Virus record (IMG/VR): IMGVR_UViG_3300036853_000417
Span: 18,151 to 82,150 of that record
DNA length: 64,000 nt
Direction: 5' to 3' (one strand)
Source of the DNA: a virus
A model generated the notes under the pieces. The model had not been told where the DNA came from and ran no database searches. It worked only from the letters and a program-made list of their open reading frames with translations. A program made the translations under genes and the position numbers. The first letter of the stretch is position 1. Each line of letters opens with the position of its first letter. Shown piece after piece: positions 5,522 through 64,000 of this stretch.

Positions 5522-6184
5522 ATGATTAACCTTGTTGCTAAGTCGATAGATATCCTACAGGCTCATCCACGCAATTACCGTATCCATCCTGAGGATGAAA
5601 TTGAGCATCTCATGGAGAGTATTCGTCTACATGGCATCTATCGCAATATTGTCATTGCACAGGATGGAAAGACGATTCTGGCTGGACACGGAGTTGTAGA
5701 AGCTGCTCGTAGACTTGGGATGACACAGGTCCCTGTGTTTCAGACAAACTATCAACCTGATGATCCACATGCTTTAAAACTGCTGGTTGGTGATAATGAG
5801 ATCCAGCACCTTGTTGAGGCTGATGATAGGGCACTCACGGAACTCTTACGTGAACTGAAAGAGATTGATGACCTACTTAGCACTGGTTATGATGAGATGA
5901 TGCTTGCTAATCTCGTCATGGTCAGTCGGCCTGCATCTGAGATTACCGATCTGGATGCAGCCTCACAATGGGTAGGACTACCTGAGCATGATAGAGAAGG
6001 AGAGCGCCGACTTCAAATTATCGTGAACTTTGCCAATGAGGAAGACCGCAAAGCATTCTGTCATCTGCTCGGCCTTGAGTCCAGCAAGATTGCAAATGAA
6101 GGAACAGGAAAGTCTATCTGGTGGCCGAAGCAAGATCGAGATGATGTGAAATCCCTTCGCTTTACTGATGGGAGACAAGGATGA
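5522..6184 (+). CDS. ParB-like nuclease-domain protein
   Basis: 220 residues. Residues 1-105 are a ParB N-terminal-like domain: the start VAKSIDILQAHPRNYR, then a helix and ILAGHGVVEAARRLG. This domain binds nucleotides or DNA. Unlike chromosome-partitioning ParB there is no obvious central HTH; the C-terminal half is helical and unassigned. The gene overlaps the following glycosyltransferase gene by 4 bp (ATGA), suggesting a shared role. A related protein is encoded at 7882-8688. Confidence 0.85.
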   Translation: MINLVAKSIDILQAHPRNYRIHPEDEIEHLMESIRLHGIYRNIVIAQDGKTILAGHGVVEAARRLGMTQVPVFQTNYQPDDPHALKLLVGDNEIQHLVEADDRALTELLRELKEIDDLLSTGYDEMMLANLVMVSRPASEITDLDAASQWVGLPEHDREGERRLQIIVNFANEEDRKAFCHLLGLESSKIANEGTGKSIWWPKQDRDDVKSLRFTDGRQG

Positions 6185-7140
6185 CTCACCGAATACTCCC
6201 AAACTATCCTATCTATATTCCCAGCAAAGGTCGTGCTGATTGCTGCTATACTGCCAAATGTCTTGATGCTGGTGAAGTTCCATTTCATCTCGTTATTGAA
6301 CCACAAGAAGAAGCTCTCTATCGGGTGCAGTTCCCCAGTGCTCATTTTCTAATTCTCCCCTGGAATGGTGATGATCAGGTACGACGTGATTTCTGCCAGC
6401 AACGTCGTATTGAGAATGGGGGCCTCATTGCTGCACGCAACTGGATTAAAGAGCATGCCACAGCAACAGGCAGTGAAAGACATTGGCAGTTAGATGACAA
6501 TATCACAGAGTTCTATCGGCGCTACAAGGGTAAGCGTATCCGATGTGAGTCGGGTCTTGCACTACGTGCCTGTGAAGACTTTACTGACCGTTATGAGAAT
6601 GTTGCGATCTCAGGTCTCAATTATTATATGTTTGTTATGGATGATAAGCAGACATCTCCACTTGTTATTAATTGTCATGTGTATTCTTGCTCCCTGATCC
6701 TGAATGCACTTCCCTTCTGCTGGCGTTTGGCCTACAATGATGATACGGATATATGCCTGCAAGTCCTCTCAACAGGGATATGGTGTACGGTACTCATCAA
6801 TGTCTTCATGTGTAGGAAGTTGCGCACAATGACTGTACAGGGTGGCAATACTGCTGATCTCTATCAAGGTGATGGACGATTGCATATGGCGCGTTCACTT
6901 GAACGGGTATGGCCAGGCATCGTTGAAACAAAGCGTCGTTTTCATCGACCACAACATGTCATAAAAGAGAACTGGAAATGCTTTGATACTCCGCTTCGAT
7001 TGAAACCGGACATTGATCTAACACAACTTCCTCCAACCAATGAATATGGGATGGATCTTTGTCAGATCAAAGATGTAATCAAAAGTCCCCGAATCCAAAG
7101 ATTACATGATGCATGGCAACAGACACATAGATCTGAGTAA
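6181..7140 (+). CDS. TET-associated-type glycosyltransferase (TAGT-like), DNA-base glycosylation
   Basis: 319 residues. The protein begins with YIPSKGRA (residues 12-19), followed by a Rossmann-like strand order, WQLDDN at residues 103-107 and YNDDTDICLQVL near 185-196. These fit the GT-A-like TAGT family found beside TET/JBP dioxygenases in phages, where it is thought to add sugar to 5-hydroxymethylcytosine. The acidic pairs D105/D106 and D187/D188 are candidates for metal and sugar-nucleotide binding. The TET-like gene is 1.5 kb downstream. The family call is from remembered motifs, and sugar donor and acceptor are not shown by the sequence. Confidence 0.72.
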   Translation: MTHRILPNYPIYIPSKGRADCCYTAKCLDAGEVPFHLVIEPQEEALYRVQFPSAHFLILPWNGDDQVRRDFCQQRRIENGGLIAARNWIKEHATATGSERHWQLDDNITEFYRRYKGKRIRCESGLALRACEDFTDRYENVAISGLNYYMFVMDDKQTSPLVINCHVYSCSLILNALPFCWRLAYNDDTDICLQVLSTGIWCTVLINVFMCRKLRTMTVQGGNTADLYQGDGRLHMARSLERVWPGIVETKRRFHRPQHVIKENWKCFDTPLRLKPDIDLTQLPPTNEYGMDLCQIKDVIKSPRIQRLHDAWQQTHRSE

Positions 7141-7155
7141 GGATTTCTTATTATG

Positions 7156-7240
7156 AGGGGCAATTTTATCTTTAGTGATGCATGGTCTTTTTCACAAAAA
7201 GTGAGGTTTGCATGGCAAAAATGCCATTGTTGAAGTTGCC
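7156..7240 (+). other. intergenic stretch with long-range inverted repeat
   Basis: Between the glycosyltransferase gene and the kinase promoter, AGGGGCAA near 7156 can pair with TTGCCCCT near 7236. The loop of about 70 bases has no T-run after it. It may be a weak terminator or a transcript boundary ahead of the promoter at 7243. Confidence 0.35.
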
Positions 7241-7242
7241 CC

Positions 7243-7271
7243 TTGAATAGTGCTGGTATGCTCTGTATACT
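7243..7271 (+). promoter_or_regulatory. sigma70-type promoter for the modification/packaging operon
   Basis: TTGAAT at 7243-7248 and TATACT at 7266-7271 with the optimal 17-bp spacing, about 30 bp before the kinase start codon. From here to the portal gene the coding sequences are nearly continuous, so this promoter could drive the modification genes together with terminase and portal. Confidence 0.6.
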
Positions 7272-7300
7272 TATAGTAGATTACTGGAAAAGAGGAAAAA

Positions 7301-7885
7301 GTGGACAGGGGAAATTCATCACTTTTCGTTCTTGGCGCTCCTGGGACTGGAAAATCAATCCTGTTACGTTCTTTTCTTCAATCCCTCGGATCTTTTGGAG
7401 AGTCTTATCAGTACAACCTGATTACCGGACAATGGTTTTCTGACTATTCATTGTTGGTTTTGGGAGAATATGTATCTGAGGAATCCTTTCCCGGCACTGA
7501 TCGCTGGTCAATGGAGGTACAACGGTGTGCAGCAGGATTTTGGCAGGACATTGCTCAACAATCTTGTACAGTTCTTGGTGAGGGAAGTCGCATTGCAACA
7601 CGTCCCTTTATTGATGCGGCACGTATCTCTACGCTGGTCTCTCTTGTTTTCTTACAGGTACACACTGATATTCTACAGGCACGCAGGGAATGGAGAGGAA
7701 AGCAAAATGCATCCTGGGTGAAAGGGATAGAGACACGCATAGAGAATCTTCAGCACTATTATCAAAATCAATTGCCCTGTTTTACCTGGAAGAATGAAAC
7801 AGACCAGGACCTCACACGCAATCTGAATGCATTGCATACAATGTTATTTAGCTCGATGTCTGTACATATGGAGGACCTATCATGA
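7301..7885 (+). CDS. small P-loop kinase, candidate hydroxymethylpyrimidine-DNA kinase
   Basis: 194 residues from a GTG start with GAGG 7 bp upstream. The Walker A motif GAPGTGKS is at residues 12-19. Further on, VLGEYVSEESFPGTDRWS and VLGEGSRIA resemble the substrate and lid regions of small nucleoside/DNA-base kinases. In thymine-hypermodifying phages a P-loop kinase phosphorylates 5-hydroxymethyluracil in DNA. Here the gene is followed by a ParB-like protein, a TET-like dioxygenase and a glycosylase-fold protein, so a role on 5-hydroxymethylcytosine is an inference from context. It overlaps the next gene by 4 bp. Confidence 0.65.
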   Translation: MDRGNSSLFVLGAPGTGKSILLRSFLQSLGSFGESYQYNLITGQWFSDYSLLVLGEYVSEESFPGTDRWSMEVQRCAAGFWQDIAQQSCTVLGEGSRIATRPFIDAARISTLVSLVFLQVHTDILQARREWRGKQNASWVKGIETRIENLQHYYQNQLPCFTWKNETDQDLTRNLNALHTMLFSSMSVHMEDLS

Positions 7886-8688
7886 GTACTACAGTTGTTA
7901 CCCATAAAACGATTCCGCTTTCACTCATTGATACGCACGCTCGTAATTATCGCAAGCATCCTCCTGCACAATTAGAGAGGCTGCGTGCCTCGCTTATCCG
8001 ATTCTCGCAGGTGCGTTCTATCGTCGTGCAGGCAAAAGAAGGTGGTCGCTACAGGATACTGGCAGGGCATGGAGTTGCATCGGCTGCACTTGAATGTGGA
8101 ATTCTCAAGCTGCATTGTAACGTTGTTCCTGACAACTGGGATGAGGGGACCTGTAATGCATATCTTGTTGCTGATAATGAGGTTGAACGAGGGGTGGATC
8201 TTGATAATCAACTTTTAGCTGAATTGCTGAAAGAGCAGGTGGATGCTGGATACTCGCTAGATGCATTAGGTATTCAAGAGAAAGAATTTACTGATCTTTT
8301 GCAAATACTCCAGGAATCTGATCGTGCTGTCCCGTCTTTTGCTGAACTTGAAGAAGAGGAGGAGGATGTACGACAGTCGATGACCCTTCCTCAAGGGAGA
8401 ACTGCCGATATTGTGAACTCTAAGAATATCAATCAAAAAGGAGATGGTGTTGCATTCGGGAGAGATCCAAAGCAATGGTTGCAGCAGTATGAAACAACTA
8501 TGCTACGACAGATAGTTCTCATCTATAAAAGCGATGAATATACACGTGTTTTAACCCAATTTATGGCTATTCGTCGCCAAAATAATCTGGAAACAAATGC
8601 CGATGTTGTAGGAGAACTTCTTTCATTTTATTTAAAGAGTCATCCAGAACTTGAAGAGGAGGCAAAGCAATATGCCTCTTCAGTCTGA
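7882..8688 (+). CDS. ParB-like domain protein, paralogous to the one at 5522
   Basis: 268 residues. The N-terminal 110 residues match the pattern of the 5522-6184 product: SLIDTHARNYRKHP, then ILAGHGVASAALECG and a VADNEVERG segment comparable to VGDNEIQHL. The C-terminal 150 residues are helical and differ. It lies between the kinase and the TET-like gene, overlapping both, which suggests it recruits or positions the modification enzymes on DNA. No nuclease residues are identified. Confidence 0.82.
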   Translation: MSTTVVTHKTIPLSLIDTHARNYRKHPPAQLERLRASLIRFSQVRSIVVQAKEGGRYRILAGHGVASAALECGILKLHCNVVPDNWDEGTCNAYLVADNEVERGVDLDNQLLAELLKEQVDAGYSLDALGIQEKEFTDLLQILQESDRAVPSFAELEEEEEDVRQSMTLPQGRTADIVNSKNINQKGDGVAFGRDPKQWLQQYETTMLRQIVLIYKSDEYTRVLTQFMAIRRQNNLETNADVVGELLSFYLKSHPELEEEAKQYASSV

Positions 8689-9526
8689 GCCAAGAGTCAT
8701 CACTCGACCAAGACGTGAGCTTGATCTCAAGTCATATCGTTTTCGGAGAGCAGAGATACGTGACTATACAGAATTGTTGACCTCTTCCACTATTTTGCGA
8801 GATGAAGCTAGTGGAAGAGTGCGTGTTGTTTATCTCGTATTATCTGATGATTGTAATGAGATTGTCCAGTCACTGCGCTCTATTCAATTTGAAATAGATG
8901 AGCGTGCATCAGGAATGCTTTCTCAATCTCGGATATTTGGATATCGTCCAAGAATTACCATTCGAGATGATTTTTGTACGACTGCTGCTCTTGCTCGCGA
9001 GCATCCTTTTGCCTACAAACTTATTTCTTCCTATGCAGCAAAGGTTTCAGATTACTACCATCAGTTCAATCCTGAGTTGTTTATAGAACATCAACGGATA
9101 GTAGGTCGTGTGCTTCCTGAATGGAGGCTGGAGGGATCGGTTTTTACCTCTGGAATTATTAATAAGAATAATCCTTTGCCTTATCACTTTGATCAAGGAA
9201 ATTTTCAGGATGTTTGGAGTAATATGCTTGTTTTCAAGCACCAAATAGGAGAGGGGTATCTTTCTGTTCCTGAATATGACATTGGTTTTGAGGTAGCACA
9301 TAATTCTCTTCTGATGTTTGATGGGCAAAACATTCTACACGGAGTAACACCTATTTATTTAGAAGGACCTGAAGCTTTTCGTTATTCCATCGTTTACTAT
9401 AGCTTAAAATCAATGTGGAATTGTCTGTCTCCCGATGAAGAGGTGAGGCGTATTCAACGTTTGCGTACCTCTCGTGAAGAAAAAAGATTTTTCAAATATC
9501 TTCCACCAAAGGAGATGCCAGAATGA
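8672..9526 (+). CDS. TET/JBP-like 2-oxoglutarate/Fe(II) dioxygenase
   Basis: 284 residues starting MPLQSEPRVI; AGGAGG lies 9 bp upstream, so I use this start. The double-stranded beta-helix signature is clear: HFD with iron ligands H172 and D174, distal ligand H223 in HGVTP, and R237 in RYSIVYY placed to bind 2-oxoglutarate. The segment between includes MLMF-type strands (NSLLMFDGQNILHG) typical of TET/JBP enzymes. The family oxidises 5-methylpyrimidines in DNA to 5-hydroxymethyl forms. Neighbouring glycosyltransferase and kinase genes and a C5-methyltransferase at 46.9 kb support action on 5-methylcytosine. It overlaps the flanking genes at both ends. Confidence 0.78.
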   Translation: MPLQSEPRVITRPRRELDLKSYRFRRAEIRDYTELLTSSTILRDEASGRVRVVYLVLSDDCNEIVQSLRSIQFEIDERASGMLSQSRIFGYRPRITIRDDFCTTAALAREHPFAYKLISSYAAKVSDYYHQFNPELFIEHQRIVGRVLPEWRLEGSVFTSGIINKNNPLPYHFDQGNFQDVWSNMLVFKHQIGEGYLSVPEYDIGFEVAHNSLLMFDGQNILHGVTPIYLEGPEAFRYSIVYYSLKSMWNCLSPDEEVRRIQRLRTSREEKRFFKYLPPKEMPE

Positions 9527-10419
9527 TCATGTCTGCAAAGGTATTTGAGGATTTTGCATTCTTCTGTCAGCATCAACTTGTGAGTAAAGATGTTGATCCC
9601 GTCTATCCATTGTTGCGGTTGCTGGTATCTCCTCTCTTGGAGGAGCAGGCACTCTGGCACACACTCCTCTATGTTGGATATTACTCTCTCCCTTCATCTC
9701 GTGCCGCTTTTGATCGTGTTCCCAGTGTTGATGCACTTCCCTTGTCCCTGTCACGTTTACCAACTGGGGTAGAGCGAAGAGGATTTCGTGGAGGAACCAT
9801 TACCAGGCATGTTGATAGCTTGCTTTATTTGCACGAGACATTTGGAAGTTTGAAAGCATGGCTCTGTCAGGAATTTGGGAGAGACATACGACAGAACTGG
9901 ATTCATTTACAAAATACCCTGCAGCAGGCATGGGGGAATGGACGGTGGGCTGCTTATAAGACCGGAGAAATTTTACAGAAAGTCCATGATTTTCCAGTGC
10001 AGCCAACAGATATGGGACATGAGTTTTCAACGGGTCCTCGTCATGGTCTTGCCCTTTTCTATGGGAATGCTTGGGGGAATGCTCCTGATGCTATTCAAAC
10101 ACTGAATGCTCAGGGAGAAAATCTCCTACAGTGTCTTGCAGAACAAGGGATACACATGGGCATAGAGCAGTTAGAGACAATGCTCTGTGATTTTTATTCC
10201 CTGGTAGGGGGACGCTATTATGTTGGTCATGATATTGATATGCTACAGACACAATTACTTGCCTCCTCTCTTTCATCAGATATCCTTGAACCTATCTGGC
10301 AAGCAAGAAAAAGAGCATTACCACACGCATATCTGGGAGAAATACAAGGCTGGACAGGAATTGATAGGGAGCGGAAAAAAGTGTATCAAAGAACAGGAAG
10401 GGTGATTATTCGTGGCTAA
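9523..10419 (+). CDS. DNA-glycosylase-fold base-modification enzyme, aGPT-Pplase/AADT-like
   Basis: 298 residues, almost entirely helical. Visible blocks are EEQALWHTLLYVGYYSLPSS near residue 38, GNGRWAAYKTGEILQKV near 138 and STGPRHGLALFYG near 171. Helical proteins with GRW...K...E and GPR.GL motifs belong to the group first called alpha-glutamyl/putrescinyl-thymine pyrophosphorylases. Some members were later shown to transfer amino acids to activated hydroxymethyl-pyrimidines in phage DNA. The assignment rests on remembered motifs and on position, between a TET-like enzyme (4-bp overlap) and an FAD enzyme (8-bp overlap). Confidence 0.55.
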   Translation: MIMSAKVFEDFAFFCQHQLVSKDVDPVYPLLRLLVSPLLEEQALWHTLLYVGYYSLPSSRAAFDRVPSVDALPLSLSRLPTGVERRGFRGGTITRHVDSLLYLHETFGSLKAWLCQEFGRDIRQNWIHLQNTLQQAWGNGRWAAYKTGEILQKVHDFPVQPTDMGHEFSTGPRHGLALFYGNAWGNAPDAIQTLNAQGENLLQCLAEQGIHMGIEQLETMLCDFYSLVGGRYYVGHDIDMLQTQLLASSLSSDILEPIWQARKRALPHAYLGEIQGWTGIDRERKKVYQRTGRVIIRG

Positions 10420-11302
10420 ACAGTGTCACCTTGTGGGTATGGGGCTGACTGGAGCGATGGTTGCATGGATACTCTATCAACATGGCTATACATTCACATG
10501 GGAGGATAATGACCAATCTGTTTGTGCCTGGAAAGCTTCAACAGGACTGATTTACCCTTGTGGGGATGACGGAGAAATGAAAGCATACTCTATCTGGAAA
10601 CAATGGCATGGAGGAAGAGCATCCTGGTCTGGTTGCCAGGTAATTGAAAAATGTGTAGAAGCTGGATCATTCTGGTTTGTGACGAAGAATCCTCCCCACG
10701 GGGGAACCTATTCAATTGAGCGCTCAATTGGATTGCTGCATCTTGCCTCTCTTTCATCATATCACTTGAATGTTCAGCATTTTGTGCGGCAAACCAGGCA
10801 GATATTTTCTGCTTGCCGCAAAGATAGATCTCATGGTCAGATCATTATTGCGAATGGATATGGATCACGCCTCCACCATTATCTTTGGGGCTGGTCTGCT
10901 CGCGTTCACCTCTCTTTTTCACAGGATTTGCTCAATGCTTCCCCATTGCGTCCAACATTCTATTTACGTCGCTCACGTTATCAATTTGGATATGCCAATA
11001 TCATTCCTGGGGAATCTGTCTATTATGCAGGTTCATCCCTCATTCATCAGGCTGAACCAAAATCCTTGAATATTGATTCTAAATATGAACGATGGAAACA
11101 ACATGTATTTGATACAACTGGAGGCAAGATATGTGTAACAGGTGTTTTGGACAGGCAAGAAGGATGGAGACCTGTATCAGACAAGCAAGATCTCGCATGG
11201 ATTACACAAGAGAATGGGATGCTGATCGTGCGCCCAATGGGTAGCTCCGGGGTCCGTCTTGCCCCATTGCTATGTGAAGCATTGCTTAAAATACTGGGAT
11301 AG
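10412..11302 (+). CDS. FAD-dependent oxidoreductase-like protein
   Basis: 296 residues. The N-terminus is a dinucleotide-binding beta-alpha-beta fold, HLVGMGLTGAMVA (GxGxxG at residues 9-14), followed by an acidic residue in FTWEDND. The C-terminus has MGSSGVRLAPLL, like the second FAD contact in glycine/D-amino-acid oxidase-type enzymes. In thymine-hypermodifying phages FAD enzymes act on the amino acid attached to the base, so a similar late tailoring step is plausible. It overlaps the preceding gene and ends 9 bp before terminase small subunit. Confidence 0.68.
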   Translation: MAKQCHLVGMGLTGAMVAWILYQHGYTFTWEDNDQSVCAWKASTGLIYPCGDDGEMKAYSIWKQWHGGRASWSGCQVIEKCVEAGSFWFVTKNPPHGGTYSIERSIGLLHLASLSSYHLNVQHFVRQTRQIFSACRKDRSHGQIIIANGYGSRLHHYLWGWSARVHLSFSQDLLNASPLRPTFYLRRSRYQFGYANIIPGESVYYAGSSLIHQAEPKSLNIDSKYERWKQHVFDTTGGKICVTGVLDRQEGWRPVSDKQDLAWITQENGMLIVRPMGSSGVRLAPLLCEALLKILG

Positions 11303-39984: not shown

Positions 39985-42114
39985 ATGGCAGTATTATATA
40001 AGCCTAGAGCATTTGGCGGTGCGGTTCCATATGAATCTCAGGCAGTGTCTCTTGCAGGCACGCTTGCAGGCACAGGTACGCTTGTACCTGTATTGTCGGC
40101 TTCTACTGCTCTCTCAGCAGAATTCGATGGAATTGGCACTTTAACAGGAACGCTCTCAGCTAATCAATTAAAAGATATTGCTACACGTTTACGATTAGCT
40201 CTTTTTAAAGATATTGCCTCTCGATTACGTTTGGTGTCAGCTATTCAATTAAAAGATATTGCTACACGTCTAAGATTAATATCCACATTGCAATTCAAGG
40301 ATATTATAACACGTCTAAGACTGATATCTGCATTACAGAGCAAGGACATTCCTTCACGTCTGAGATTGATATCTTCTAACCAATTAAAAGATATTGTTTC
40401 TCGATTCCGTTTGGCTATTTTCAAAGATACTACTGCTCGATTACGTTTAATGTCTGCTAATCAATTAAAAGATATTGTCACCCGTTTCTCTCTCATAGGG
40501 AGTGTCCAGATACAGGGTATTATGACCCGGTTGAGATTGATATCAGCCTCACAACTCAAGGATGTAGCTATTCGTCTGCGTTTGATGTCAGCAAATCAGA
40601 TCAAAGACATCATATCCAGATTGCGCCTGATGTCTTCCTCGCAATTGAAGGATGTTATTTCTAGATTGCGTCTGAGAAGTGCAAATCAGATCAAGGACCT
40701 CATCACACGTCTGCGTTTAGCATTCTTTAAAGACATTGTTTCCAGACTTCGTTTAATGAGTGCCTCGCAACTAAAGAATGTAGCTCTTCGATTGCACCTG
40801 ATGTCTGCTCCTCAGGTAAAGGATGCCGTAACACGTTTAAGACTGCGATCAATTAATCAATTCAAAGATATAGACACACGTTTGCGCCTGGCACTCTTTA
40901 AAGATATTTCTGCCAGATTGCGCGTAATGAGCTTGAGTCAGCTCAAAGATATCACTTCCAGACTTCGCTTAATATCTGCCAGCCAGCTGAAAGACATTGT
41001 TTCCAGATTGCGCTTGATATCAGGGAGTCAGCGCAAGGATGTGTCATCACGTCTACGACTGGCACTCTTTAAAGACATTGTTGCACGTTTGCGCCTGATG
41101 TCTGCCAGTCAGATCAAAGATGTCGCTCTTCGGCTACGTCTGATATCTGCCAGCCAGCTCAAAGACATTATTTCCAGATTGCGCTTAAAATCAGCAAATC
41201 AGCTCAAGGATATCAATACACGTCTACGATTAGCGCTCTTTAAAGATATTGCGGCCAGACTGCGCTTGATGAGTGCCAAACAGTTTAAGGATGTTTCAAC
41301 ACGATTTATCCAGGTTGTGCCAGGGCAACAAATCAAGGATCTTATCACACGTATGCGACTCATGAGTGCTAATCAACGCAAGGACATTCCTGCTCGCATG
41401 TGTTTGGCACTCTTTAAAGACATTGTTTCCAGATTGCACTTGATATCAGCTAGTCAACTCAAGGATGTAGAAACGCGTCTGAGAATAATGTCCACTCCTC
41501 AGATAAAGGATGCTCTAACCAGGATTCGATTGCGATCTGCTAATCAGTTCAATGACATCGACACACGTCTACGGTTAGCACTCTTTAAAGACATCGCTTC
41601 CAGGCTTCGTTTGATGAGTGCTGAACAGATCAAGGATACCACGACTCGCCTGAGAATGAGGAGTGCTAACCAGCTTGAGGACATCGTTTCAAGGCTCAGT
41701 CTAATGTCTGCTAGCCAGCTCAAGGATGTCACTTCCAGGCTTCACTTAATGTCTGCCAGTCAGTTCAAGGATGTCGTATCCAGACTGCGCCTGATGTCAG
41801 CTATCCAGTTCAGGGATATGTCCATTCGTTTGCGCCTGATGTCAGCTTTACAACAAAATGACCTCGATACCCGTTTGCAATTAATGTCAGCAAGACAATT
41901 ATGTGATATCAATGTACGTCTTCTCCTAACATATGCTATTCAATTAAAAGATATTACATCAAGACTGATTCTTATTTATGATGCGGATCAATATCACGAT
42001 ATTCCTTGTCGCTTTATTTTAACGACAATAGTGGATGGGACTTTCTATGTACGTAGTGGTAACATTACGTCATATGTACGTAGTGGTGATATTAACATGT
42101 ATGTAAGGAGCTAA
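39985..42114 (+). CDS. giant repeat protein, 43 copies of a 12-15 residue motif
   Basis: 709 residues. After 45 residues, I count 43 units of the form K-D-[IV]-x-x-R-L-R-L. Units are spaced 15 residues apart (xKDIxxRLRLxSxxQ) or 12 (xKDIxxRLRLAL), the short spacing recurring every few units. The end changes to YVRSGNITSYVRSGDINMYV. The regular alternation suggests a beta-solenoid or beta-helical rod. Its place after fibre proteins and an SGNH hydrolase suggests a long tail or head fibre. The DNA copies have diverged at wobble positions, so the array is old and under selection. Confidence 0.8.
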   Translation: MAVLYKPRAFGGAVPYESQAVSLAGTLAGTGTLVPVLSASTALSAEFDGIGTLTGTLSANQLKDIATRLRLALFKDIASRLRLVSAIQLKDIATRLRLISTLQFKDIITRLRLISALQSKDIPSRLRLISSNQLKDIVSRFRLAIFKDTTARLRLMSANQLKDIVTRFSLIGSVQIQGIMTRLRLISASQLKDVAIRLRLMSANQIKDIISRLRLMSSSQLKDVISRLRLRSANQIKDLITRLRLAFFKDIVSRLRLMSASQLKNVALRLHLMSAPQVKDAVTRLRLRSINQFKDIDTRLRLALFKDISARLRVMSLSQLKDITSRLRLISASQLKDIVSRLRLISGSQRKDVSSRLRLALFKDIVARLRLMSASQIKDVALRLRLISASQLKDIISRLRLKSANQLKDINTRLRLALFKDIAARLRLMSAKQFKDVSTRFIQVVPGQQIKDLITRMRLMSANQRKDIPARMCLALFKDIVSRLHLISASQLKDVETRLRIMSTPQIKDALTRIRLRSANQFNDIDTRLRLALFKDIASRLRLMSAEQIKDTTTRLRMRSANQLEDIVSRLSLMSASQLKDVTSRLHLMSASQFKDVVSRLRLMSAIQFRDMSIRLRLMSALQQNDLDTRLQLMSARQLCDINVRLLLTYAIQLKDITSRLILIYDADQYHDIPCRFILTTIVDGTFYVRSGNITSYVRSGDINMYVRS

Positions 42115-57709: not shown

Positions 57710-57955
57710 TTATGCGTGTTCCACAATCTGCATATGCTCATTGAGCGCAAGTCCGATTGTCTCAAGCCATGCATTGATCGTAGCAATAGCCCAGAAACGC
57801 GTTCCAATGCGCCAGTCATATGCACTGGTAATTCCTTGCCCTTCCATCCAACAAAGGAATGCTTCAGGATTATCAGGCTTTTCTGTCTGGATAAGACCGA
57901 CCTCAATGCCATGACCATGCACAATTTCACAGCCATTTGGTAATACTTTATACAT
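57710..57955 (-). CDS. small hypothetical protein
   Basis: 81 residues. Its ATG overlaps the end of the upstream regulator-like gene, in GGAGGAGGAGA-rich sequence that serves as the ribosome site. The FLCWMEGQGITSAYDWRIGT and INAWLETIGLALNEH segments look like a real fold. It is translationally coupled to the upstream gene. A second frame over the same bases (57706-57936) is weaker. Confidence 0.6.
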   Translation of the reverse strand: MYKVLPNGCEIVHGHGIEVGLIQTEKPDNPEAFLCWMEGQGITSAYDWRIGTRFWAIATINAWLETIGLALNEHMQIVEHA

Positions 57956-58478
57956 TCTCCTCCTCCTCCTCTCTTTCTTCTGGAATCTTGAGGCCCTGAG
58001 CCATCAGACCCAGTTCAGATATCACCCATCGTTCAGAGATTTTGAATGCTCCTACTATTTCTCTGCGGGATACTTTGTTTTTAAGCGTACCGACGTTCAG
58101 GTTGTTAGCTCTTGCTACCTGATCAAGACTGAAGATACGATTGCGTGCGGTAGCAACCGCAAATAACGCGGAAAAAATCGCAACCATTTCAATTCCTCCC
58201 TGCTGAACTATCTCAACAAGCCAATCCATATCTTCCTGTCGATGTAAGAGTCTCATGTCGGATGATACAATTGCCATGTACATCCCAAGAAATTCGATTA
58301 AAAACTGTTGCTTTACTGCATCAGACATGGAAGCAGTTTTGACAAGTGTTGAAAATCGATCTAGCGTTCCCCGCACTGATGGAACTTCTGGATGTTTTTC
58401 TCTCCATCTTCTATTCATGGCAGTTGAGAGTATAGCTGCATATTGATTAAAATGTGGGTTACTGAGTACTTCTTTCAT
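57948..58478 (-). CDS. putative transcriptional regulator
   Basis: 176 residues. Helical; near residues 115-160 FSLDQVARANNLNVGTLKNK and the following helix look like an HTH. The C-terminus is an acidic run (EEREEEEENV). AAAGGA lies 7 bp before the ATG. Its promoter carries two CGCTAGCG sites, which suits autoregulation, but binding is inferred. Confidence 0.62.
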   Translation of the reverse strand: MKEVLSNPHFNQYAAILSTAMNRRWREKHPEVPSVRGTLDRFSTLVKTASMSDAVKQQFLIEFLGMYMAIVSSDMRLLHRQEDMDWLVEIVQQGGIEMVAIFSALFAVATARNRIFSLDQVARANNLNVGTLKNKVSRREIVGAFKISERWVISELGLMAQGLKIPEEREEEEENV

Positions 58479-58600: not shown

Positions 58601-59560
58601 ATGACTGTACCACAATTCGTTGACCTCTCAGCATTTCAGCCGACCACTATTGATTGGGCAGCCTACCGAACATGGGCTGCGCAATGGGATGGAGTTGCGC
58701 GGGTTGCCATGCGGTCAAGCTATGGTGTTGGTTATATCGACCAGCATTTTGCGGGCTACCGAGCGTCAGCACTAACCGCAGGAATAGATGTTATTCTCTT
58801 CTATCATTATAGCTATCCACAATTTAATAGTCGTGCCTCTGATGAGGCAAACTGGCAACGGCAAGTTGTAGGAAGCATACGCGAGCAAGATATGATGATC
58901 CTGGATTATGAGGAGAATGTTGGACAGGCGACTAGCGACTGGGCATATGTATGGCTACAGACACAAGAAGCCAATTACGGAAAACCTCCAGGGATTTATG
59001 CAAGTAGTTCGTACATCCAGCAAAGATTACAACACGACGGGCGCCTTACTCGATATCCATTGTGGCTGGCCAACTGGCAGTTTTCTCCCGATGCAAGACC
59101 CGCTTGCCCTCCTCCCTGGTCGAAATATGAATTTGTTCAGTATACCGATAAAGCAACTGGCATTCCTGGCATTCCAGGGGCAGTTGATGCCAATATTTTT
59201 CTCGGAGGGAGTACACCAATCGTGCAAATCTATACTCCTGGCAAAGGAGACTTTGCTACATACTTTGTTGATAATGGAACTGGATCATGGACCTGCAAGC
59301 AGACTAATATGGTCCTCATGGGTGGGAACCTGACACTCTATCAGAAGCTCTCCATAGATGGGAACTCATTGCCTATCCTGGGATTGCCACGTACCAATGA
59401 ACTCTATCAGCATGATCCTGATGGATATGGGTGGAGTGTTCAATTCTTTGAGCGGGGACTTATTGTCTTTGATTCACAGCATAAAAAGGACTCGCAGCCT
59501 GGAATGGGAAGTTCCTATCTCGGTAAATATGAACAATTCAAGCAATATGATCCTGCATGA
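58601..59560 (+). CDS. GH25 endolysin (N-acetylmuramidase)
   Basis: 319 residues. Residues 1-205 are a GH25 lysozyme: VDLSAFQPTTIDWAAY at the start, catalytic DxE in MMILDYEEN near residue 102, and FVQYTDKATGIPGIPGAVDA near 185. The C-terminal 110 residues (LGLPRTNELYQHDPDGYGW, VQFFERGLIVFDS) resemble LGFP-type wall-binding repeats. It cleaves peptidoglycan after holin action. The next gene starts at its stop codon (ATGA). Confidence 0.92.
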   Translation: MTVPQFVDLSAFQPTTIDWAAYRTWAAQWDGVARVAMRSSYGVGYIDQHFAGYRASALTAGIDVILFYHYSYPQFNSRASDEANWQRQVVGSIREQDMMILDYEENVGQATSDWAYVWLQTQEANYGKPPGIYASSSYIQQRLQHDGRLTRYPLWLANWQFSPDARPACPPPWSKYEFVQYTDKATGIPGIPGAVDANIFLGGSTPIVQIYTPGKGDFATYFVDNGTGSWTCKQTNMVLMGGNLTLYQKLSIDGNSLPILGLPRTNELYQHDPDGYGWSVQFFERGLIVFDSQHKKDSQPGMGSSYLGKYEQFKQYDPA

Positions 59561-60000
59561 ATAATGCAACAATCACTGTCTACCTTGTAGTTATCCTGAT
59601 TCCGCTTTTTACAGCATGGCTTCAAGTGGGTATACACAGAAAGCTAGCCAATGCATTTATTGCATTCCTGTTTTTTGTTGTATTAGTTATACTATGTTAT
59701 ATAATTGGTGGCATCATTACAGGAAATGCAATGATAGATACACTCATCTACGTTGGAATAATAAACAGCATTTGCAGATTTACCCCGTGCAAGCAGCTTG
59801 CAGACGTTTTTGCAGAAATACCCTCTCCTCTCCTGCTCTTTAGACCTCCACCTAAAGAGGAGACGCTTCCAATTGCGGAGACCATTCCTCTTCATGCACA
59901 GGATACAGAGCATGAGATACCAATAGTACAGCCAAGAATCATCTCCTATCTTTCTGCAAGTCAACTGGAAGAATCTTCTTATGAAGAATGTAGTACTTAG
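59557..60000 (+). CDS. membrane protein next to endolysin
   Basis: 147 residues. Three hydrophobic segments lie at about 5-22, 34-55 and 60-76, then a Pro/Glu-rich cytoplasmic tail. It overlaps the endolysin stop by 4 bp, so it may be an additional holin or accessory of lysis. Confidence 0.65.
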   Translation: MNNATITVYLVVILIPLFTAWLQVGIHRKLANAFIAFLFFVVLVILCYIIGGIITGNAMIDTLIYVGIINSICRFTPCKQLADVFAEIPSPLLLFRPPPKEETLPIAETIPLHAQDTEHEIPIVQPRIISYLSASQLEESSYEECST

Positions 60001-60005
60001 TTGAG

Positions 60006-60055
60006 GAAACCTCGTCTGTATGATTTACAGATCCTGGCAGTGACGCTGACCGACA
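60006..60055 (+). repeat. 50-bp inverted repeat, left copy
   Basis: Begins GAAACCTCGTCTGTATG and ends CGCTGACCGACA. It matches the reverse complement of 61075-61124 at 44 of 50 positions and bounds a 1-kb cassette with its own promoter and two genes. Confidence 0.8.
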
Positions 60056-60067
60056 AAATGATCCCCA

Positions 60068-60116
60068 TTGACAACTACTGGTAGTTGCGGTATACTCATT
60101 ATAACTACCAGTAGTT
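60068..60116 (+). promoter_or_regulatory. consensus promoter with two AACTACnnGTAGTT operators
   Basis: TTGACA (60068-60073), 17 bp, TATACT (60091-60096). Palindromes AACTACTGGTAGTT (60073-60086) and AACTACCAGTAGTT (60103-60116) flank the -10 with centres 30 bp apart, about three turns. A repressor at both could shut the promoter. Confidence 0.85.
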
Positions 60117-60149
60117 GTATGAAGCGAGTCAGAGAGCGGAGAGAAACGT

Positions 60150-60752
60150 ATGGCTGAATTTGATGGTAATGCACTTGGACAAGAGGCAGTGCGCATGCTG
60201 TATGGCTACATTACCTTGATGATTGGTCCCAGAATGTATCGTGGATGGCGGGCTACCATGCTCCCTGATGATCTTCTAGAACAGTATCAACAGGCACCTC
60301 TTTACCGGGATATCCAACTCCTTGTCCGCATCGCCAATGGAGATATCGAGCGCGACCAGGCAAGTGAGGACATATTGGATGAGATTCTTGCCGCAATTCA
60401 GCAAGTACGAGATGACCTACAGCGACCACCATCTGGGGCATGGCTATTTACGCAGACATCTGAGTTCTTGCAAACTCCCCTCGGTCAGATGCTCCAACAG
60501 GCAGAGTTCTGGTTGGCCAGCCCAGACCTCATTACCCTTTCCGAAGCTGCGTCCCTTTACACCGGACAGGCAAATCTCAATGGACTCAAAATCATCCAGC
60601 GTTTGATCGCCAAACGAGAACAGGGAAAGTATGACCAGAAGGGGAGACAGACCGGATTGCAGGTTATTATTGATCCCTTTGAGCAAAATCCACAACACAA
60701 TAAGCGCGTTCGCCGAAGTGAGGTCGAACGACTCAAGGCAGAGAGAGCATAA
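60150..60752 (+). CDS. putative DNA-binding protein (HTH/excisionase-like C-terminus)
   Basis: 200 residues. The first 115 are helical. From residue 127, DLITLSEAASLYTGQANLNG, then LKIIQRLIAKREQGKYDQKG and a basic RVRRSEVERLKAERA, resemble the winged HTH of excisionase/MerR-like proteins. GGAGAG precedes the ATG. It lies under an operator pair inside the inverted-repeat cassette, so it may regulate itself. Confidence 0.65.
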   Translation: MAEFDGNALGQEAVRMLYGYITLMIGPRMYRGWRATMLPDDLLEQYQQAPLYRDIQLLVRIANGDIERDQASEDILDEILAAIQQVRDDLQRPPSGAWLFTQTSEFLQTPLGQMLQQAEFWLASPDLITLSEAASLYTGQANLNGLKIIQRLIAKREQGKYDQKGRQTGLQVIIDPFEQNPQHNKRVRRSEVERLKAERA

Positions 60753-61028
60753 ATGGAATCAGCGGAAGGAGTATTGTCAATGATAGAGCAAACAGTCACA
60801 TGGCATACGGTGAAGCATGGCAATGGATCTCGCAACCAGATGCGTGTGAACGGCAAGGTGGTCCTGGAAGATTATTATCTTGCTGGCGGTCATACATACG
60901 AAATACCACAAGGACGAGGCAAGCCACGAGCGAGGGTCTGCTTTAAGGAAACTCCTCGTGGTGATGGAAAAGTACTGTGGGAAGAAAACGATGGCATCGC
61001 AGAATTGGAACGAGTTCGTTTATCCTAG
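60753..61028 (+). CDS. small hypothetical protein of the cassette
   Basis: 91 residues, start directly after the upstream stop; a second ATG (MIEQTVTWHT, 60780) is possible. A small beta-rich fold (MRVNGKVVLEDYYLAGGHTY). Function not recognised. It ends just before the right inverted repeat. Confidence 0.58.
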   Translation: MESAEGVLSMIEQTVTWHTVKHGNGSRNQMRVNGKVVLEDYYLAGGHTYEIPQGRGKPRARVCFKETPRGDGKVLWEENDGIAELERVRLS

Positions 61029-61074
61029 TGCCTAATCTTTACTGCCTAAAATTGACTCGAAACAGCCGAAAGGC

Positions 61075-61124
61075 TATCGGTCAGCGTTGCTGCCAGGATT
61101 TGTAAACCATCCAGACGAGGTTTC
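61075..61124 (-). repeat. 50-bp inverted repeat, right copy
   Basis: Reverse complement of 60006-60055 with six mismatches. With its partner it encloses promoter, operators and two genes. Confidence 0.8.
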
Positions 61125-61170
61125 TTAGTTGAGTAGCGCATTCTGGCTCAAAGGCTTCGCTAGTAGAGAA

Positions 61171-61199
61171 AAAGGCGGGGTTGGACCCCGCCTGATTGT
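61171..61199. terminator. bidirectional rho-independent terminator
   Basis: AGGCGGGG and CCCCGCCT form an 8-bp stem with a 5-base loop. On the minus strand it is followed by TTTTT, ending the leftward 404-residue gene; on the plus strand TGATTGTTT follows. Confidence 0.85.
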
Positions 61200-63093: not shown

Positions 63094-63700
63094 GTTCCAT
63101 CTTCATGCTGGGAGTGGAGCAAGTTGCAACTGGGAAGATGATCCTGTGTTCCGTTTCATCTCCATGTAGGAGCAGGGCAGGTTGCAACGACATGTGATAC
63201 ATTTCACCGCGTATGTAACTGAAAGTTTCACTGCCATGCTAGTTGTGAGACATGCTGCAACTTTGAGCTATCTCTAAGATCGTCCAACGTTCAGCAAGTT
63301 TCACTACCATTCTGGTTGTGGGACACGTTGCAACTGGTCCTTGGTGAACATCGCTACGAGACTATTGGTTTCACTGCCATTCTGGTTGTGGGACATGTTG
63401 CAACTGCTGAAAATGCAAACCGAGCACTGCTTTATACATAATGTTTCACTGCCATTCTGGTTGTGAGGCACGTTGCAACCTATGATGGATTGGTTGGTCG
63501 TTGCACGGTTTCAAAGTTTCACTGCCATTCTGGTTGTGGGGCATGTTGCAACCTATGATGGATTGGTTGGTCGTTGCACGGTTTCAAAGTTTCACTGCCA
63601 TTCTGGTTGTGGGGCATGTTGCAACCTGAGGATAGCACTGCGATTACACTTGGATTGCGTGCCGTTTCACTGCCATGCTGGTTGTGGGACACGTTGCAAC
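63094..63700 (-). CRISPR. CRISPR array, nine 36-37-bp repeats, two degenerate
   Basis: Repeats start at 63094, 63153, 63225, 63298, 63368, 63443, 63516, 63589 and 63664. On the plus strand each begins GTTTCACTGCCAT and ends GTTGCAAC. Spacers are 33-38 nt, except 22 between the two degenerate left copies. Read leftward the repeat ends GTGAAAC, the usual 3' end of CRISPR repeats, and degeneracy at the left marks the trailer end, so transcription is probably leftward with the leader to the right of 63700. The spacers at 63480-63515 and 63553-63588 are identical. No cas gene is in the window. Confidence 0.92.
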
Positions 63701-64000
63701 CGGAAGTCGATTTTGATGGCTTGTCAGGCTGCTCTAGATGGATAGTTTCGCAAATCGGGAAATATCTTCATCATTTCTTCTGGAAAAGGGGAAGATACTT
63801 CTTGTTTGTGCTCAAGTTTTCTCGAAAATCGAGGCTATTTGAGGACAAAATGCGAACATGCAACGTGTTCCATAACCTGGGGATTCTTTGTTCAATCCCA
63901 GGATTGAATGGAGTATCTTGTTGAAACCAGACTCAGTTCTTCGGAACTCCGTTAGAAGCGAATATATAGGTACCATAGAGTGCGTGGCCAGCTCGATGCG
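63701..64000. other. non-coding region, probable CRISPR leader
   Basis: The 300 bp right of the array carry no convincing gene. A long frame over the array (63473-63924) is an artefact of repeats. The hairpin-prone GGGATTC...CAATCCC is near 63880-63902. If the array is read leftward this holds the leader and promoter. Confidence 0.45.

Follow-up and report, generated by a model that had tools for sequence, protein, structure and literature searches.

A probable trans-mobilised, MIC-type transposon cassette carrying an operator-bearing operon in a tailed phage

A 1,119-bp cassette in the genome of a tailed phage, measured between the outer edges of two inverted repeats, is probably a non-autonomous DNA transposon of the mobile-insertion-cassette (MIC) type that was mobilised in trans and gave the phage a moron. 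The window, meaning the whole stretch of DNA that was analysed, is 64,000 nucleotides long and corresponds to bases 18151-82150 of the 82,150-base virus record IMGVR_UViG_3300036853_000417. Window positions are used throughout, and positions prefixed L010 belong to the same record. The source can be assigned to a tailed phage by its predicted terminase, portal, tape measure, GH25 endolysin, and tyrosine integrase. The cassette (60006-61124) has two terminal inverted repeats and a target-site duplication, and it carries cargo instead of a transposase gene. Neither the cassette nor the rest of the ORFs scanned contained a transposase that could be recognised. The case is of moderate interest because the acquisition of morons by phages usually goes unexplained; here, the transposon ends are intact and the duplicated target is perfect, which suggests an acquisition that is recent and can still be read.

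The left terminal inverted repeat, which starts with GAAACCTCGTCTG, lies at 60006-60053 on the plus strand, and the right one lies at 61077-61124 on the minus strand. The initial annotation had described them as 50-bp inverted repeats of 88% identity. They are real and are better given as arms of 48 nt that are complementary at 43/48 positions (90%), with mismatches at the other 5 and none in the outermost 13 bp, GAAACCTCGTCTG. The window was scanned for arm pairs of 40 nt with at least 85% agreement and at most 3 kb between them. Besides the cassette, only dispersed promoter repeats at 25.8 and 28.9 kb were found, and under the same settings no comparable pair occurred in any of 20 first-order Markov shuffles of the window.

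Immediately outside the arms, a 9-bp direct repeat, TTAGTTGAG, can be read directly in the sequence. Its left copy occupies 59997-60005 and its right copy 61125-61133. The two copies are perfect, each abuts the outer edge of one arm, and the complementarity of the arms ends precisely where the direct repeat starts. Identity of 9 bp at a fixed position has a chance probability of p ~4e-6, and it was seen at the same span in 0 of 20,000 random positions used as a control. A transposase that makes staggered cuts classically leaves inverted ends with the target duplicated in direct orientation right outside them, and several IS families use a duplication of 9 bp. This combination is the signature of DNA transposition. 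A target-site duplication had been named in the initial annotation as something to look for, although the perfect copies outside both arms had been missed; together with the terminal repeats, they bear out its suggestion of a small mobile element.

The insertion point lies between an upstream membrane-protein gene and a convergent phage gene. The upstream gene is an ORF at 59557-60000 on the plus strand that encodes 147 amino acids, and it adjoins the endolysin gene (58601-59560), which has a Pfam GH25 match. Its position and hydrophobicity suggest a holin. The TAG stop codon of this holin-like gene lies inside the duplicated 9 bp, in the left copy, and the gene is thus left intact. On the other side, a strong bidirectional terminator is predicted at 61173-61193, about 40 bases past the right copy of TTAGTTGAG, and it is the sole strong terminator nearby. 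The cassette thus appears to occupy the space that separates the lysis genes from their terminator, a place where its insertion does no visible harm. At 48.7%, its GC content exceeds the 44% of both flanks and ranks at the 96th percentile within the 82-kb record. No terminator is predicted inside the cassette. The earlier description of this segment as a moron is supported in part: the cassette has its own promoter, a distinct base composition, and an apparent insertion between two genes, but no terminator of its own. Farther upstream, a 176-aa protein is encoded on the minus strand at 57948-58478, pointing away from the endolysin gene; it has an HTH-like C-terminus and a weak match to the excisionase family phrog_2655 (E 0.08).

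Just inside the left arm lies a sigma-70-type promoter on the plus strand (60068-60096), with a -35 element TTGACA at 60068-60073, a 17-bp spacer, and a -10 element TATACT at 60091-60096. It agrees with the consensus at 11/12 bases and is the best promoter match in the region, so that the consensus promoter reported in the initial annotation is real as a pattern. Two operators accompany it. O1, AACTACTGGTAGTT, lies at 60073-60086 between the -35 and -10 elements, and O2, AACTACCAGTAGTT, lies at 60103-60116, on the inferred start of transcription or immediately past it (~+1), 30 bp from O1. The two are exact reverse complements of each other, which confirms the operators noticed earlier, and no further perfect copies exist in the window or in the other parts of the record examined. 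As a single strand, the operator stretch folds far better than shuffled sequences (z -6.5). However, only O2 falls in the transcript, and a dimeric repressor acting on DNA is thus a simpler reading than an RNA fold.

Two reading frames follow the promoter, as had been noted at the outset. The first, ORF1 (60150-60752, plus strand), encodes 200 amino acids and has no significant match in PADLOC, Pfam, NCBIfam, or PHROGs. Its C-terminal third weakly resembles a winged HTH of the excisionase or MerR type. The hints of an HTH are a match to phrog_11483 (E 0.09) and a short similarity: residues 152-175, 24 residues in all, are weakly similar to the wing of a 117-aa protein from another phage contig, L004 (E 0.03). 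The predicted structure is helical and poor (pLDDT 42). Searches for relatives of ORF1 in viral contigs, in phages, in plasmids, and in 398 Bacillota genomes found none. The earlier label of an HTH-like protein has weak support. Because ORF1 lacks a family match and has a poor model, its autoregulation of its own promoter is a guess from the layout.

ORF2 most likely starts at 60780, as suggested by an AAGGAG ribosome site and by the start of its relative in L004, and ends at 61028 on the plus strand, giving about 82 amino acids (91 if counted from 60753). It is the small protein of the earlier description. The model is all-beta, with six predicted strands and a pLDDT of 72, and has no significant fold match in the PDB or BFVD. 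PADLOC, Pfam, NCBIfam, and PHROGs likewise gave no match for ORF2. It does have a relative of 75% identity over 64 residues in an unrelated phage, IMGVR_UViG_3300012199_000003 (L004). Among viral contigs, the only relatives are those in L004 and L007, which are the same contig. None were found in phages or plasmids, and 299 Bacillota genomes gave two sub-threshold noise matches.

The relative in L004 is the last member of a plus-strand group of small genes flanked by minus-strand genes of the terminase region, and the 117-aa protein with HTH-like sequence precedes it. Inverted repeats like those of the cassette are absent around the relative. This position in an unrelated phage, in a plus-strand group behind an HTH-like protein, indicates that ORF2 is moveable cargo; its gene travels as an accessory in more than one way, probably with an HTH partner. 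The group itself (L004:7374-8581), which includes the HTH-like protein and the ORF2 relative and has a palindrome-bearing, promoter-like upstream region, is probably another moron.

The ends of the cassette were sought in the rest of the record, in viral contigs (with three patterns), and in 84,980 genomes, and no further occurrence was found; in plasmids, BLAST returned only matches with E ~1-3. These searches required exact matches of 17-21 bases or a BLAST hit, which diverged relatives could escape. A single match to the inner part of the ends in one viral contig lies within a coding sequence and was set aside as chance. No helper transposase, second copy, or empty site was found. Comparisons of the holin and terminase likewise found no close relatives of the phage; the terminase has only distant ones, and an apparent holin relative in contig L005 proved spurious.

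Several other features of the phage record were observed. Three CRISPR-like arrays are present, at 63225-63702 of the window, L010:305-872, and L010:8707-9750. They are of two repeat types: GTTTCACTGCCATTCTGGTTGTGGGACATGTTGCAAC, with a period of ~73-75 nt, which is found in inverted orientation at the two ends of the record, and GTTTCAATCGCTCAGTCGCGAAAAACCTTATTGCCAC, with a period of 73-75 nt. No cas genes were noticed alongside the arrays, and a genome scan for a host with the phage CRISPR repeat gave only two chance matches in coding DNA. A DNA hypermodification cluster at 6181-11302 comprises a TAGT glycosyltransferase, a P-loop nucleotide kinase, a Tet/JBP oxygenase, and an amino acid:DNA transferase (ADDT), with a weakly FAD-oxidoreductase-like protein in the same row. 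The dispersed promoter repeats have the form TTGACA-17-TATGATA; their spacer holds a palindromic operator, and a conserved block lies upstream. They precede many genes (window 24278, 25764, 28843, 62449, and 62789; L010:1176, 5629, 8507, and 16608) and apparently form one phage regulon. Adjoining the tail genes, a 709-aa protein (39985-42114) is built for the most part from repeats of 12 to 15 amino acids (LRLMSANQLKDI type), and its gene has about 20 nucleotide repeat copies with a 45-nt period. Finally, bacterial-type genes at L010:2976-5584 encode a TerC family membrane protein and an HD-domain protein with a LuxR-type HTH.

The features of the cassette suggest the following mechanism. A transposase supplied in trans, by the host or by another element, would recognise the two 48-bp terminal inverted repeats and insert the cassette into TTAGTTGAG just behind the holin-like gene, with duplication of 9 bp. 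Once in place, the strong promoter of the cassette would drive ORF1 and ORF2 together. A dimeric repressor, most likely the ORF1 product acting through its C-terminal HTH, would then bind O1 and O2 and close the promoter. Transcription probably stops at the phage's own terminator past the right repeat. The mobilisation in trans, the regulatory role of ORF1, and any benefit conferred by ORF2 are suggested by the layout.

The cargo may also be taken as the whole of the matter. The segment would then be an anti-defence or immunity operon, of the anti-CRISPR/Aca-like, superinfection exclusion, or toxin-antitoxin kind, and its ends would be incidental. The layout fits such an operon: behind a strong promoter with a pair of inverted operators lie genes for a possible HTH regulator and for one small protein whose family is rare. 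Promoters of acr genes that contain inverted repeats are known targets of Aca repressors (PMC9410906). The CRISPR-like arrays in the record also mean that the biology of this phage touches CRISPR. However, searches of PADLOC, Pfam, NCBIfam, and PHROGs gave no match for the operon. The regulator of a known acr operon is usually smaller and follows the acr gene, and the order and size found here are unlike this. Moreover, incidental ends leave the 9-bp duplication unexplained. As a complete account this is unlikely, but an anti-defence function of the cargo is compatible with a trans-mobilised cassette.

It is improbable that the cassette is instead an autonomous transposon of an unrecognised kind, with ORF1, alone or with ORF2, as its transposase. 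ORF1 does occupy the usual place of a transposase between the two ends, its product is helical and finishes in an HTH-like region, and the record yielded no other transposase. Against this, the 200-aa product of ORF1 matches no transposase in Pfam, NCBIfam, or PHROGs. ORF1 also shares an operon with ORF2 under a promoter that has two paired operators, and ORF2 has a relative in another phage without these ends.

An invertible switch, also raised in the initial annotation, is very improbable. Here, a site-specific recombinase would flip the 1.1-kb segment between its inverted arms. The 13 identical outer bases of the arms would suit such a recombinase, and the record encodes a tyrosine integrase about 63 kb away (L010:14493-15641). 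However, the promoter and the genes both lie inside the segment and would turn together, so that flipping would not switch expression. The arms also differ at 5 of 48 positions, and no recombinase gene adjoins them. Finally, the perfect 9-bp direct repeat next to the arms is not a product of recombination between inverted sites and would be unexpected for an inverton.

It is scarcely credible that the arms are unrelated hairpins, such as the paired transcription-stop structures once proposed, beside a coincidental 9-bp repeat, since the left arm as RNA folds somewhat better than shuffles (z -2.1) but the right arm does not (z ~0), neither arm has a predicted terminator, the one strong terminator lies outside, and neither the shuffled windows nor the chance probability of the abutting repeat favour coincidence.

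A trans-mobilised cassette remains the best account of these features, and it has consequences for the way in which phages gain genes. It implies that non-autonomous transposition into a safe gap behind a lysis gene can bring a phage a regulated operon. ORF2, a small and rare protein that has a counterpart in an unrelated phage, is a candidate for an accessory, possibly anti-defence, function. More tentatively, the cassette could represent a class of transposable morons, in which self-regulated accessory operons, perhaps with anti-defence functions, are carried by phages between transposon ends. If such a class exists, transposases acting in trans would spread these cassettes between phages and hosts, which would be a concrete mechanism of moron acquisition.

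The cassette shares features with several known systems. Like MITEs, it is apparently non-autonomous, with inverted ends and a target duplication; MITEs, however, are short and gene-free, whereas the cassette carries two genes. It resembles Acr-Aca operons (PMC9410906 and PMC9410881) in pairing a small protein with a possible regulator of the HTH type and in having inverted-repeat operators that cover the promoter. However, none of the known Acr or Aca proteins tested is related to it in sequence, and its regulator differs in order and size. Phages often carry morons, whose acquisition has been called "mysterious" (PMC4378225). Those of lambdoid and Mu-like phages likewise have their own promoter, lie between two phage genes, and have a base composition unlike that of their neighbours. 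Morons are normally without bounding inverted repeats and a target duplication, both of which are present here, while the cassette lacks a terminator of its own and carries two genes.

The closest likeness is to mic elements, which are defined by inverted repeats and the lack of a transposase, with a target duplication usually seen (PMC3913671). Known examples are MIC231 of Bacillus cereus and mic-qnrD of Proteeae, the latter with 24-bp ends and a 2-bp duplication (PMC3913671). The cassette shares with them inverted repeats at both ends, a target-site duplication, and, where a transposase would be, cargo under its own promoter. It differs in its location in a tailed phage, in its 48-bp ends, which had no related ends in the viral, genome, or plasmid collections searched with these strict settings, and in its 9-bp duplication. 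Its cargo is also an operator-controlled operon, while MIC elements carry a single gene for an enzyme or for resistance. Trans mobilisation was demonstrated for MIC231 (cited in PMC3913671) and is probable for the cassette. The cassette is thus best called a MIC-type cassette working as a moron, in an uncommon place and with an unusual cargo.
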